Source: Bacilli bacterium (lineage in GTDB: Bacteria > Bacillota_I > Bacilli_A > RF39 > UBA660). From it: a stretch of 64,000 nucleotides of DNA. The notes beneath the pieces were generated by a model. The model was not told where the DNA came from and made no database searches. It saw only the letters and a program-made list of their open reading frames with translations. This document shows positions 6,126 to 64,000 of this stretch, in pieces. A program made the position numbers and the translations under genes. Within the stretch, counting starts at the first letter, position 1. Every line of letters begins with the position of its first letter. The stretch covers positions 52,279 to 116,278 of the forward strand of contig JAQUWE010000001.1 of the NCBI GenBank assembly GCA_028693035.1, written 5' to 3'.

Positions 6126-7541
6126 TTAAGGAATAATAAGTGTCTGCCCAATCGACAAATTGTTATTTTTTAAATTATTTCTTTTTGTGATAGCATCCAC
6201 AGTTGTATTATTATTACTTGCTATTTTATATAAACTATCTCCAGATTTTACAACATATCTTTTTTCAGATGTTGTAGGAGTAGTAATAGCTGATGCATTT
6301 GGAATTCGTATAACCTGCCCTACACTAAGTAAATTGGTAGGTAGATTATTATAACGCATTAAAGTATCTACGGTTGTATTATATCTAGAAGCTACGTCCC
6401 ATAAATTATCGCCAGCTTTGACCGTATAATTTGTATAAGAAGAATCACTTGGCGCTGTTCCTTCTGTACCTTCATCTGTTTTCTTTGGAATTTGTAGGAT
6501 TTGACCAATACTAAGTGCACTACTAGACAAATCGTTATATTTCATAAGTTCTTCTGCACTTATATTATATTTACTGGCAATATTCCATAAAGTATCTCCT
6601 GTTTTGACTGTATATAAGGTTTCATCAGGGGGAATTAGATTCTCATTACTATTGTCATCTCCTATAATAATAGTATTTGGTACTTTAATTTGTTGCCCAA
6701 TTGATAAACTAGAAGTGGTGAGATTGTTTAAACGTAAAAGTTCATTGGCTGTCGTATTGTATTTACTAGCAATTTGCCATAATGTATCTCCTGCTTTTAC
6801 TACATATATATCACTTTCTTCTGGAGCACTTGGAATTACGGAAACCCGTAGCACCTGTCCTACTTGCAAAGCATTGGAAGGTAAATTATTTAAAGTTTTA
6901 AGAGTATCTACTGTTGTATTAAACATTTTGGCAATACTCCATAAACTATCACCTGACTTAACTGTATAAGTACCAGCTGGGGTTTTCCTTCCCATATATT
7001 CTAAAAGAGCTCTTACAACTGCATCTACATACTGTGGATAATTGTTTTTTAATTGTTGTACATCATCTTTTGTACTATCTAAAAAACCATATTCCATAAT
7101 AAATGGCTGTGTTTGCCCTGTTTCTCTAAGCATAAAATAGTAATCCTTAGATGGATCTGAAGGGAGTCTTCTTTGGTATACACTTCTTACATTTTGCCCG
7201 GCTCTTTCAATTTCTGTTGCGACTCTATTGGCTAAATTATTATTGTTTCTTAACGCATAGATAACCTCTGCTCCATCTCCACCAGATGCATTGATATGAT
7301 TAGATACAACAATGACATCATTGCTATCTCCAAAAGCATCCAATACTCTTTTTACCCTGTCATTTGGATTGATGGTTTCGTCTGTTTGACGAATCAGTTT
7401 CACAGGCACATTTAAATCTTGCAATCTCTGATACATCAACTGTGATATTTGTAAATTCAAATCTTTTTCAATAATACCATTTCCAACAGCACCACTATCT
7501 GTCCCACCATGCCCTGCATCTATAACAACTTTATAATCCAT
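6126..7541 (-). CDS. N-acetylmuramoyl-L-alanine amidase (Amidase_3) with five C-terminal LysM domains
   Basis: VVIDAGHGGTDSGAVG...SNHINA...MEYGFLDS catalytic pattern, then five YxVKxGDxLwxIA...LxxGQxlxIP modules. Confidence 0.93.
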   Translation of the reverse strand: MDYKVVIDAGHGGTDSGAVGNGIIEKDLNLQISQLMYQRLQDLNVPVKLIRQTDETINPNDRVKRVLDAFGDSNDVIVVSNHINASGGDGAEVIYALRNNNNLANRVATEIERAGQNVRSVYQRRLPSDPSKDYYFMLRETGQTQPFIMEYGFLDSTKDDVQQLKNNYPQYVDAVVRALLEYMGRKTPAGTYTVKSGDSLWSIAKMFNTTVDTLKTLNNLPSNALQVGQVLRVSVIPSAPEESDIYVVKAGDTLWQIASKYNTTANELLRLNNLTTSSLSIGQQIKVPNTIIIGDDNSNENLIPPDETLYTVKTGDTLWNIASKYNISAEELMKYNDLSSSALSIGQILQIPKKTDEGTEGTAPSDSSYTNYTVKAGDNLWDVASRYNTTVDTLMRYNNLPTNLLSVGQVIRIPNASAITTPTTSEKRYVVKSGDSLYKIASNNNTTVDAITKRNNLKNNNLSIGQTLIIP

Positions 7542-43475: not shown

Positions 43476-43490
43476 ACTACTTCCTCCTTA

Positions 43491-43903
43491 TAGTCTTAGA
43501 TTTTTAGTTTTTATATATATAAACTTTGTAAACAAAGCGGTTTTAGGCAAAAAAAGAACCTAATATAAAAATACATTAGATTCTTCATTGTTTTTATAAA
43601 TAGATTGCAGAAAAAACAACATTTTCTGTTTTGATTGCGGATCAGTATATTAGACAGTTTACTTCTTTTTGTCATAAAATTACCCCAACTTTTTCAATAG
43701 TCTTAGATTTTTGGCTTTTATATATATAAACTTTGTAAACAAAGCGGTTTTTAGGCAAAAAAAGAACCTAATATAAAAATACATTAGATTCTTCATTGTT
43801 TTTATAAATAGATTGCAGAAAAAAACAACATTTTCTGTTTTGATTGCGGATCAGTATATTAGACAGTTTACTTCTTTTTGTCATAAAATTACCTCAACTT
43901 TTT
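43491..43903. repeat. Two direct tandem copies of a ~207-bp noncoding unit
   Basis: 43491-43697 and 43698-43903 are near identical (tagtcttagattttt...gtcataaaattacc[c/t]caactttt), with a few substitutions and homopolymer indels. Confidence 0.93.
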
Positions 43904-43993
43904 AAATTGATATCCAAGGATAGTGTAACAAATGATTGAAATATTTGTCAACACTTATTTTAAAGTTTTAATAAATTTATTACAGAAGACAAT

Positions 43994-44941: not shown

Positions 44942-46858
44942 TTATTTTTCCATTTTAATTCTAACTTCATAGTGTCCTGGTAAATCCATTTCTTCAATAT
45001 CTACTTTGATTCCTAATCCTTCTAATTGATTTGAAAGATTTCTTACCATATTAATTCCTTCTCTAATATTGAAAGAAAGTGGTAAAGTCGTAGAAACAGG
45101 AACCTGTGGTTCTTCTACCATTGGTTGTTCTGGTACTTTTATTACAGGTGCGGTTGCGGCTTCATTCATTCCTTCTGGTTGTAAAGGAATAATAGGTTCC
45201 TCAAATTTGTGAGCATTTGGAATGGCTTCTGGACCCATTGGTGTATAGGTTACCTCTGGAGTTGGTACTGGAACTGGAGTAGGAATAGTCTCTACTGGTT
45301 CTAAACGTAGAGGCTCTATCGTTGGAGTCTCTACTACCATAGCTGGCTGTGAAAAAATATCTTCTACTGGTGCTTGTGGTTCTTCTACTATTGGTTGTAC
45401 AAATTCAGGTTGTACGATTTCTGGAACCGCTACTTCAGCAATACCACTTGATTGTTGTGGTGCTGGAGCTGGCACTGGATCAATAAAAGGATTTTCTAAT
45501 ATATTAGGTGTTTGTTCTGTAAATGTATTTTGTACAGTTGGTGCTTCTACTGGAGCTGGAGTAGGAATATTCAAATCTGAAAAGATAGGAGAATCATCAC
45601 TAAAGATAGAAGTATTTGAAGGAGCTACCTCTGATACTATTTGATGATTTGCATCAACATTTTCCATACTTGGTAAAACATCGAAAAATTTTCCTGCTGG
45701 TTCCTTTGGTAATTCTACCTCTTGTGGCACAACTTCTGGTTCTGCTCCTGGGGTTGGCATAAAATTAAATTCACTTGCAACTGGCGCTGATTTTGGTGCA
45801 ATATCTGCTGCCTCTCTTTGAATTTTATCAATATCCATAAATCCAGGATTTATCATTTGTGGATTTTGTTGTTGTATAGTTCTTTCTGGTTCTACAGGTC
45901 CTACTGTAGAAGGAATAACCATTTCAGGCATAATTTCTACTGGAGCTGGTTCTGGTTGCTTTGGAAGTTGTTCTGTGGGAATATCGTCTATAATATTTAC
46001 TTGTGGTAAATCAAATTGATTGATTGGATCGTTGTTATTCATTGTTTCTTCCTCTCCTTTTTTTATATTTAATGAATTGATAAAATCTAATATTTCTTGT
46101 TCTTCTACTTGGAAATCTGGTTCTGTTTGAGATTCTTTTGGTTCGGGTTTGATGATATTTGGAGATATATTTTGAATATCTACCGCTTCTTTTTCTATCT
46201 TATCAATATCCATAAATCCAGGATTTATTCCTTTTCCTTTTTTTTCTAAATCTTCTTCCAATATTTTCTTTATTTCTTCATCTGCTTTTCTAACAGTCAT
46301 TCTTTCTTGCATAATTCTATACAATAATTGTACTTGTTTTTCTTTATCACGAACTCTTAATAAAGAACGAGCATGTCTTTCTGAAATTTTATTTTCAAGT
46401 AATGCCTCTTGCACATCATCCGTAAGTTGCAAAAGCCTTAATTTATTGGCAACGGTAGCTTGTGTAACCCCTAATTTTTTTGCCAAATCTTCTTGTGTTA
46501 AGTCTCCCATATCTAAAATTTTACGGTAAGATACGGCTTCTTCTATTGGGGTCAAATCTTCTCTTTGCACATTTTCTATAAGAGCTATTTCTGAACTATC
46601 TTTATCATTTAAATTGTTAATAATTGCTGGGACCATTTCTAACCCAGCCATCACAGATGCTTTATAACGTCTTTCTCCTGCAATGATTTCATATTTATCT
46701 CCAAGTGCCCTTACAGTAATAGGCTGGATAACGCCATACTTTTTAATGGATTCTGCTAATTCTTGAATCTTATCCTCATTAAAGTGAATACGAGGTTGGA
46801 ATCGGTTAGGCAGAATATCGTTTATATGAAGCATGACAACTTTTGGTTCACTCTTCAT
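44942..46858 (-). CDS. parB: ParB/Spo0J-type chromosome partitioning protein with long Pro/Glu-rich insert
   Basis: ILPNRFQPRIHFNEDKIQELAESIKKYGVIQPITVR, GERRYKASVMAGL, ALIENVQREDLTPIEEA, LGVTQATVANKLRLL, ERHARSLL; then a low-complexity region and C-terminal SNQLEGLGIKVDIEEMDLPGHYEVRIKMEK. Start taken at MKSEP after GGGAGG. Confidence 0.92.
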   Translation of the reverse strand: MKSEPKVVMLHINDILPNRFQPRIHFNEDKIQELAESIKKYGVIQPITVRALGDKYEIIAGERRYKASVMAGLEMVPAIINNLNDKDSSEIALIENVQREDLTPIEEAVSYRKILDMGDLTQEDLAKKLGVTQATVANKLRLLQLTDDVQEALLENKISERHARSLLRVRDKEKQVQLLYRIMQERMTVRKADEEIKKILEEDLEKKGKGINPGFMDIDKIEKEAVDIQNISPNIIKPEPKESQTEPDFQVEEQEILDFINSLNIKKGEEETMNNNDPINQFDLPQVNIIDDIPTEQLPKQPEPAPVEIMPEMVIPSTVGPVEPERTIQQQNPQMINPGFMDIDKIQREAADIAPKSAPVASEFNFMPTPGAEPEVVPQEVELPKEPAGKFFDVLPSMENVDANHQIVSEVAPSNTSIFSDDSPIFSDLNIPTPAPVEAPTVQNTFTEQTPNILENPFIDPVPAPAPQQSSGIAEVAVPEIVQPEFVQPIVEEPQAPVEDIFSQPAMVVETPTIEPLRLEPVETIPTPVPVPTPEVTYTPMGPEAIPNAHKFEEPIIPLQPEGMNEAATAPVIKVPEQPMVEEPQVPVSTTLPLSFNIREGINMVRNLSNQLEGLGIKVDIEEMDLPGHYEVRIKMEK

Positions 46859-47037
46859 CACACGTACCTCCCGCAATTTTCTTTTATCTATTCTTTTACA
46901 ATTACTATATTACTATACTTTGGGAAATAATTCAACAAACTTTTTAAAATGTTAATGGTTTTTTAGTGATTTTTATAATCCTTAAAGAAAAATTATTTTT
47001 ATACTTTCACTATTGACAACAAATTCTTAAAAAAAAA

Positions 47038-61192: not shown

Positions 61193-63652
61193 ATGGATAA
61201 ATTACAAGAAATGCCTTTTGCACATGAAATAGAAAACTCATTTTTATCTTATGCAATGAGTGTTATCGTTTCGCGTGCCCTTCCAGATGTTAGAGATGGA
61301 TTAAAGCCAGTACAGAGAAGAATTGTTTATGGAATGAATGATATGGGTGTTACTGCCTCTACACAACATAAAAAATGTGCTCGTATTGTTGGAGATGTTA
61401 TGGGTAAATATCATCCACATGGAGATTCTTCTATCTATGAAGCTCTTGTACGTATGGCACAACCCTTTTCTTACCGTTATATGCTTGTTGATGGACATGG
61501 AAACTTTGGTTCTATAGATGGAGATGGTGCAGCTGCTATGCGTTATACAGAAGCGCGTATGGCTAAACTTAGTATGGAACTTGTAAGAGATATTAATAAA
61601 GATACAATTGATTTTGAACCTAACTATGATGCTACAGAAAGAGAACCAGCCGTTTTACCAGCTAGATTTCCTAATATATTAGTAAATGGTACTACAGGTA
61701 TTGCAGTTGGTATGGCAACAAATATGCCACCTCACAATTTATCAGAAGTCATTGATGCTACTGTTGCTTTAATTGAAAACTCTGAATTAACGGTTCTTGA
61801 TCTTATGCAATATATTAAAGGTCCAGATTTTCCAACAGGAGCGTCTATTCTAGGAAATAGTGGAATTCGCAAAGCTTACGAAACTGGAAAAGGAATTATT
61901 ACAATCCGTTCTAAAGCACGCATAGAAGAAATGAAAAATGGAAAACATCAAATTATAGTTACAGAAATTCCATATATGGTAAATAAGGCTGTTTTAATCA
62001 CTAAAATGGCTGATTTAGTAAGAGATAAAGTGATAGATGGTATTACTGATATTAGAGATGAAAGTAATAGAGATGGAATCCGTATTGTAATTGAATTACG
62101 TAGAGATTCTAATGCCAATGTTATTTTAAATAATTTATACAAGCATACGACATTACAATCTAGTTTTGGAATTAATAATCTAGCCATTGTAGATAAAGAA
62201 CCAAGAATTTTAAGTCTTAAAGAAATATTAGTAAAATATATTGAACATCAAAAAGAAGTTATCATTAGAAGAACTAAATTTGATTTAGATAAAGCAGAAG
62301 CAAGAGCACATATTTTAGAAGGATTGAAAATAGCTCTTGATAATATTGATGCAATCGTTCAATTGCTTAAAAAGGCTAAATCAGATGATGAAGCAATCAA
62401 ACAATTGATGGAGAGATATAAACTTACAGAAATTCAATCAAAAGCAATTCTTGAAATGAAACTTCGTCGTTTAACAGGTCTAGAAAGACAAAAAATAGAG
62501 GAAGAATTAAAACAATTAGAAATTATGATTGCTGATTTTAAAGCTATTTTAGATAGTGAAGAGAGAATTTTAAATATTATTAAAGATGAATTAACAGAAA
62601 TCAAAAATAAATACGGAGATGAAAGAAGAACCAATATAGATATGTCAGCTATTGACTATATTGAAGATGAAGCTTTAATTCCGGTAGAAGATATTGTTAT
62701 TACATTAACCAATAAAGGTTATATTAAGAGAATGCTTAGTGAAAATTATCGCACACAAAATCGTGGAGGAGTTGGAATTAAGGGAATGGCTACAAATGAA
62801 GAAGATTTTGTAGAAAATATTCTTTCTATGACAACGCATGATTACATTTTATTCTTTACCAATAAAGGAAAAGTATATAGAATGAAAGGTTATGAAATTC
62901 CTCTCTATAGTAGACAATCTAAGGGATTACCAATGGTAAATTTACTTCCAATTGAAAAAGATGAAGTAGTAAAAGCCATGTTGAAAGTAGAAAATGAAGA
63001 CCAAGCACAATATATTGTATTTTGTACACAAAATGGTTTGGTAAAAAGAACTAAGATTGAAGAATTTGATAACATTAGAAATAGTGGAAAAATAGCTATT
63101 ACATTAAAAGATGAAGATGAAATTTTAGATGTTAAGAAAACAACCGGAAAAAATGAAATTTTAATTGCTTCTTCTAACGGAAGAATGATTCATTTTGAAG
63201 AAGATGAAATTAGAGTAATGGGACGTTCTGCTGCTGGAGTACGTGGTATAGATATAGGCGACGGAAAAGTTGTAGGATGTGAAATTGCGGAACCAGGTCA
63301 TGAAGTATTGGTTGTAACTGAAAAAGGTTATGGTAAGAGAACTGGAATTGAAGAATACCGTATGACTCATAGAGGAAGTAAAGGTGTTAAGGCGCTAAAC
63401 ATTACCGAAAAAAATGGTAATATAGTTTCCTTCAAAGCCGTTCACGGAGATGAAGATCTTATGATTATTACTAATAATGGAATTGTTATAAGATTATTAA
63501 TTGATCAGATATCAACTACTGGACGTGTAGCGCAGGGTGTAAAACTTATTAATTTAAAAGATGATCAAAAAGTTAGTACAGTAGCTACAATCAAAAAAGA
63601 AGAGAATATTGAAGAAAATGATAGTGAAGTTGTAGAAGAAAATAATGAATAA
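61193..63652 (+). CDS. gyrA: DNA gyrase subunit A
   Basis: [54 protein letters not shown], GyrA-box-like [10 protein letters not shown]. Confidence 0.98.
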
Positions 63653-63702
63653 TTATTTTCTTTTTTTAATTAAATTAATTTTATGAAGATAGAAAAATAT
63701 TT

Positions 63703-64000
63703 TAATAAAAACAAAAAGAAGTAAATCAATGTTTCACGTGAAACATAGTGCGAAGAAATAAGAGAGTAAATGAATAAAAGGAAGTAAATCAATGTTTCAC
63801 GTGAAACATAGTGCGAAGAAATAAGAGAGTAAATGAATAAAAGGAAGTAAATCAATGTTTCACGTGAAACATAGTGCGAAGAAATAAGAGAGTAAACCAA
63901 AAAGAGAAAGTAAATCAATGTTTCACGTGAAACATAGTGCGAAGAAATAAGAGAGTAAACCAAAAAGAGAAAGTAAATCAATGTTTCACGTGAAACATAG
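63703..64000. repeat. Tandem 63-bp repeats, each with a perfect parS palindrome; continues past the window end
   Basis: TGTTTCACGTGAAACA at 63730-63745, 63793-63808, 63856-63871, 63919-63934, 63982-63997, spaced exactly 63 bp. Confidence 0.97.

Follow-up and report, generated by a model that had tools for sequence, protein, structure and literature searches.

A tandem array of parS sites beside gyrA, the probable chromosomal centromere of an uncultured Bacilli bacterium

The ParABS system of Bacillus subtilis comprises a Soj-like ParA, a Spo0J-like ParB, a Noc paralogue and SMC, with a 16-bp palindromic parS that occurs near dnaA/oriC as eight sites spread over ~0.75 Mb (PMC8357415). Clustered chromosomal parS sites are already known, the closest case to the one described here being Myxococcus xanthus, with 22 sites in a 3-kb cluster near parAB, ~4 kb upstream of parA (PMC3899335, PMC3778016); Pseudomonas aeruginosa has an origin-proximal chromosomal cluster of four sites, for which the available part of the source mentions no duplicated units (PMC4368675). 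Tandem ParB-site repeats are likewise known from plasmids: F sopC, adjoining sopAB, is made of twelve 43-bp tandem repeats bearing 16-bp inverted repeats (PMC6238139). A review of ParABS leaves open why chromosomes have several parS sites when one suffices and why these are clustered (PMC7333895), a single site being enough in several model species (PMC7333895, PMC7083940). Scattered sites are reported to be confined to a few lineages, the Bacilli among them, and to be counterproductive for avoiding SMC collisions, which are expected to be fewer with tightly clustered loading (PMC8357415).

The locus analysed here belongs to an uncultured gut-type Bacilli genome and shares with B. subtilis the 16-bp palindrome, the proximity to dnaA/oriC and the set of Soj-like ParA, Spo0J-like ParB, Noc paralogue and SMC. 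Its layout is different, with all perfect sites at a single address ~34 kb from parAB, whereas those of B. subtilis are scattered. As in M. xanthus, many parS are packed into a few kilobases near the origin; unlike that cluster, this one occupies the gyrA–dnaX interval and is built from head-to-tail units with near-identical spacers, a species-specific period and an address fixed across the family. The P. aeruginosa cluster, also origin-proximal, has fewer sites. With sopC our array shares tandem direct repeats that each carry one inverted-repeat, ParB-type palindrome and, by prediction, a role as ParB nucleation platform; it differs in being chromosomal, without a plasmid match, and neither adjoins nor derives from a plasmid par operon. 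The F plasmid's ParB and site sequence differ from those of the chromosomal parS system. The array combines a chromosomal parS cluster with sopC-like tandem architecture, and we found no report in the open-access literature of a head-to-tail chromosomal array with a fixed address and a lineage-specific period. Set against the scattered sites noted for Bacilli, the family described here went the opposite way, towards clustered parS.

The window, meaning the whole 64,000-nt stretch of DNA that was analysed, corresponds to C7:52279–116278 of a 1.36-Mb genome in 36 contigs (G000). Scanning it with TGTTTCACGTGAAACA recovered five sites with 0 mismatches, at exact 63-bp steps and within 270 bp (Table 1), at the very coordinates given in the original prediction. 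No further match at ≤3 mismatches exists elsewhere in the 64,000 nt; the chance expectation for such sites over the whole window is 0.34, and none of 100 shuffles reached five. Tandem Repeats Finder delimits a repeat of period 63 (96% matches, 0% indels; ~4.6 copies inside the window) whose start, as had been claimed, directly follows the end of gyrA, and a listing of the units agrees with the A, A, B, B order described for the four complete spacers. The array does run off the window. On the contig it reaches C7:116657 (equivalent to window position 64379), laid out as five units, a 100-N scaffold gap and five more units, every site perfect, with two further spacer subtypes past the gap, arranged C, C, D, D. 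Because the gap lies inside the array, the parS copy number is a lower bound: at least ten perfect copies of the 16-bp palindrome TGTTNCACGTGAAACA (parS being this sequence or a close variant) in <0.7 kb as assembled. The genome scan proposed with the prediction identifies the array as the sole perfect-match parS cluster; no perfect parS was found outside it in the 1.36-Mb assembly (93% complete, 6% contamination). A 1-mismatch copy lies at C7:124388, ~8 kb downstream and within an mfd-like gene.

Table 1. Coordinates of the array and associated genes, numbered from the first nucleotide of the window
Feature	Coordinates	Strand	Basis
Noc-like ParB paralogue, 644 aa, long Pro/Glu-rich C-terminus	44942..46876	-	TIGR04285, alignments, residues
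dnaA	54792..56144	+	ORF; name by sequence recognition and gene order
gyrA, left neighbour of the parS cluster, conserved across the family	61193..63652	+	NF004043/TIGR01063 over cut-off; synteny
Left part of tandem parS array, 63-bp units	63713..64000	.	Tandem Repeats Finder, pattern search, unit listing
parS 1, perfect palindrome	63730..63745	.	Pattern scan
parS 2	63793..63808	.	Pattern scan
parS 3	63856..63871	.	Pattern scan
parS 4	63919..63934	.	Pattern scan
parS 5, last ahead of assembly gap	63982..63997	.	Pattern scan, contig sequence

The distance to dnaA, which lies 7.6 kb upstream, and a GC-skew turning point at ~54–56 kb in the window, near dnaA and marking the origin region, give the array the origin-proximal position of a chromosomal ParABS centromere. 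We take the genes upstream to be rnpA, dnaA, dnaN, recF, gyrB and a gyrA-like gene, in the usual origin order. On the 3' side follow a bacterial small SRP RNA (RF00169, 57 bits), tadA and dnaX, the latter over its NCBIfam cut-off and tadA just below its own (139 versus 150 bits). Past dnaX come what are presumably a ybaB-like gene and recR, named by sequence recognition and order. Two 209-bp direct repeats (97% identical; no Rfam match) occupy 43490–43907 of the window.

Genes for ParA, ParB and SMC were all found, and so the parts of a ParABS–SMC system are present. A ParA-family ATPase and, directly downstream, its cognate Spo0J-type ParB are encoded at C7:150330–151989, downstream of the array. 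The ParB, of 297 aa, scores 204 bits against TIGR00180, with B. subtilis Spo0J as best PDB match (6sdk, E 1.9e-62). SMC, the gene for which must be present if the protein is to be available at parS, is encoded on C17 (TIGR02168, 985 bits). The array is very probably a chromosomal centromere (parS locus) contained in one intergenic interval, running from gyrA to the SRP RNA/tadA/dnaX block. As the only perfect parS cluster, near dnaA, in a genome encoding ParA, ParB and SMC, it would be the main ParB-loading centromere of the origin domain, in keeping with the original prediction.

The genome encodes a second ParB homologue, the Noc-like paralogue of Table 1, which adjoins rsmG and mnmG 17 kb upstream of the array. 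It scores 283 bits against TIGR04285, under the 315 cut-off, and, of the four positions that separate Noc from ParB (positions from PMC7383237), three are Q, K and R in the alignment, the 297-aa ParB retaining R at position 173. The NBS sequence, TATTTCCCGGGAAATA, has exactly one perfect copy in the genome (C7:123162–123177; L012 ~13163), ~6.5 kb past the array and within an rsmI-like gene; the sites of the array itself are parS, not TATTTCCCGGGAAATA. Noc-type residues and the single genomic NBS disfavour this paralogue as binder of the array, and the 297-aa Spo0J-type ParB is expected, from its sequence, to be the protein that binds parS. The Noc match begins ~11 residues into the paralogue, against 26–28 in the longer PDB Noc chains, and so its N-terminal membrane-binding stretch may be missing. 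The C-terminal extension has a repeated NPGFMDIDKI motif. A weak ParB-like match at C31:8440–8661 is broken and contains a stop codon; it may be what is left of a mobile element.

Across a family sample of 117 genomes (116 genera), parS sites at ≤1 mismatch are present in 91. Loci were retrieved for 113 genomes, 89 of them via a parS match; since these 89 were found through parS, it is their neighbourhood alone, and not site presence, that counts as a test. Parsing the neighbourhoods places parS-like sites (≤2 mismatches) beside gyrA and/or tadA/dnaX at 109 of the 113 loci; of the other four, one has sites but none of these anchors, and at three gyrA lies near a contig end and sites are lacking. 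An independent sample consisted of 19 loci retrieved by the GyrA C-terminus from genomes without a ≤1-mismatch parS match, seven of the 26 such genomes being left out for having only GyrA/ParC-like matches of 39–43% identity. Two-mismatch parS variants lie alongside gyrA at 16 of these 19 loci, often as regular arrays (27, 28, 66 and 121–125 bp). All ≤1-mismatch sites are confined to one locus of ≤3 kb in 60 of 89 genomes, and most of the remaining 29 loci stop at a contig edge, as is expected of repeats in short-read assemblies. At least two sites are kept in 82 of the 89 genomes with sites, and the number across genera runs from 1 to 18, several family members having one to three. The family consensus is an 18-bp palindrome, ATGTTYCACGTGRAACAT, whose outer A and T played no part in site selection.

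Closer to hand, four of five other genomes of the same genus have parS adjoining gyrA (and tadA/dnaX where the contig extends), as six sites at 45–46 bp, seven at 36–38 bp, seven at 64 bp and 3+1 at 136 bp. The location beside gyrA is conserved across relatives, whereas the 63-bp spacing is not. The original prediction had held that relatives with dispersed parS and without shared 63-bp spacing would speak against it: the spacing is indeed not shared, but the sites of relatives are not dispersed, clustering instead at one address. More than 100 genomes form a natural series with one centromere address, in which the number of sites runs from 1 to 18 and their spacing from 27 bp to several hundred. 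Spacer purine content is high in some arrays (0.78–0.90); with a family median of just 0.54, purine-rich spacers were rejected as a general feature, and the enrichment is probably leading-strand skew.

The repeat units turn over between lineages. Spacers are near-identical within an array and dissimilar between species of the same genus (identity 0.89–1.0 versus 0.14–0.69), the likeness between species rising at most slightly above that of shuffled sequence (z no higher than 3.3), and site variants are shared at 0.64 within genomes versus 0.28 between them. The paired spacers, A A B B before the gap and C C D D after it, fit duplication of single units. These patterns fit units that have probably been duplicated and homogenised around a conserved site at a conserved address, and agree with the expansion by unit duplication that had been proposed.

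Several other origins for the array have to be weighed. A misassembled duplicate, or a minus-strand gene for a 21-aa protein repeat (63 = 3 × 21), might be suspected from the 100-N gap that splits the array and from a 103-aa minus-strand open frame that spans it; both are extremely improbable, for arrays of other species stand at the same place with other sequences and periods of 37, 64, 55 and 28, the outer flanks are anchored in gyrA and SRP RNA/tadA, and simple duplication of reads would not yield four spacer subtypes. The coding repeat was rejected outright, as sister-array periods indivisible by 3 could not keep frame. (The frame itself, at 63670–63981 on the minus strand, encodes a hydrophobic repeat of 21 aa, which simply follows from the 63-bp period.) It is scarcely more credible that the chromosome captured a plasmid- or phage-derived, sopC-like centromere: the architecture does resemble F sopC (PMC6238139), and tandem parS triples occur in five viral contigs, but no similar DNA was found among 72,556 plasmids, the phage comparison gave one weak 47-bp match, the address is shared by 109 family genomes with housekeeping flanks and no mobile genes, and the 16-mer is that of chromosomal parS and not plasmid-specific. 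The viral contigs (L308–L312, from IMG/VR) each hold at least three perfect parS spaced 34–54 bp, and in L312 (e.g. 6137–6445) there are eight parS-like sites, most of them at 38-bp intervals; such sequences may come from the host or from plasmid-like prophages, or act as parS decoys. A further reading concerns the period, which the original prediction took to matter because 63 bp would put every site on the same face. Selection of a six-turn period, with all ParB dimers on one face for cooperative assembly, has 63/10.5 = 6.0 turns in its favour, as well as a group of 62–66-bp arrays near six turns (L012, L021, L186, L198, L204 and L245); we nevertheless judge it very improbable, and this part of the prediction is not supported by the comparison. 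Same-genus periods (~45.5, 37, 64 and 136 bp) amount to 4.3, 3.5, 6.1 and 13 turns, and regular arrays of at least three equally spaced sites, found at 37 loci, have periods of 27 to 265 bp, or 2.6 to 25 turns. At 10.5 bp per turn, a Rayleigh test on the 33 arrays <140 bp gave R = 0.07 and p = 0.84, with no significant helical-turn preference for these 33 periods anywhere between 10.2 and 11 bp. Among pooled spacings <120 bp, neither 10.5 nor 10.6 bp gave a signal; p = 0.003 came up at 10.2 only, a value we discount as the spacings are non-independent, being copies within one array. Integral-turn spacing of the kind expected for a helically phased ParB array is not conserved, and with no phase preference over the family arrays the six-turn fit is not a common design rule. 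ParB–CTP clamps load on parS and then slide off (PMC8299390), so a fixed DNA face is not expected to matter.

Whether the number of sites is itself selected is a finer question. We tentatively propose, at somewhat below an even chance, that the family centromere is a miniature satellite, in which address and site are fixed, the unit is replaced and homogenised in each lineage, and a high parS number is selected for one strong ParB/SMC loading point as opposed to scattered ones. A neutral satellite, with functional sites whose tandem copies stem from replication slippage at an intergenic position and bring no benefit, is unlikely, if still a serious competitor: genera differ in their number of copies, from 1 to 18, the period is not conserved and one site is enough in C. 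glutamicum (PMC7083940). Slippage alone does not predict the non-tandem clusters with unrelated 100–300-bp spacers that retain many sites (e.g. L155, L156 and L202); the retention of at least two sites in 82 of 89 genomes also argues against neutrality, as does the keeping of the 16-mer while spacers diverge, seen at L096, where nine of ten sites are perfect and the 55-bp spacers variable.

In the centromere reading that we favour, Spo0J-type ParB dimers would load as CTP clamps at every parS and slide to flanking DNA, giving one dense partition complex; ParA would move this complex, which would in turn load SMC from a single point. Packing many parS into <1 kb may speed up clamp loading at that point. 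Tandem duplication and homogenisation would quickly change copy number and spacer, selection would keep the 16–18-bp site and the chromosomal address, and spacer length probably just reflects which unit got duplicated. In vitro, B. subtilis ParB condenses DNA more strongly the more parS the DNA carries, 5–7 sites per DNA being needed (PMC8299390), and the natural series found here comes near the designed multi-parS single-molecule substrates of that work. Several sites probably add robustness in C. glutamicum, though one suffices (PMC7083940). A compact multi-site platform at a single address fits these findings and the lower number of SMC collisions expected with tightly clustered loading (PMC8357415). 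Given that a single parS suffices in several model species, an advantage of ten is hypothetical, and the family members with one to three sites indicate that a long array is not required. Loss of sporulation was considered as a cause of clustering and rejected: it predicted absence of Spo0A, whereas a Spo0A-type regulator exceeds its curated cut-off in 79 of 98 small family genomes (mostly ~1–1.5 Mb). The clustering must therefore have a cause other than Spo0A loss.

Beyond the family, genomes from other Bacilli families in a class-level sample have 0–3 loosely spaced sites, some near gyrA or dnaX, and no tandem parS array was found in that sample. A scan of 84,980 species listed at least 119 stretches with two perfect parS 18–48 bp apart, so close parS pairs are common in bacteria. 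Among the 119 stretches listed, five, which serve as examples and not as frequencies, hold at least five sites within 1 kb; they come from Parcubacteria, Rhodospirillales, Lachnospiraceae, Treponema and one uncultured Bacilli contig, in which ten sites, spaced 55 bp, lie in a gyrA–tadA–dnaX block. A Rhodospirillales MAG has its tandem parS between mnmG and rsmG, ~41 bp apart (L100, 2221–2399), and a Parcubacteria MAG has them at 52 bp (L095, 4525–4862), which suggests independent tandem parS expansions outside the family.
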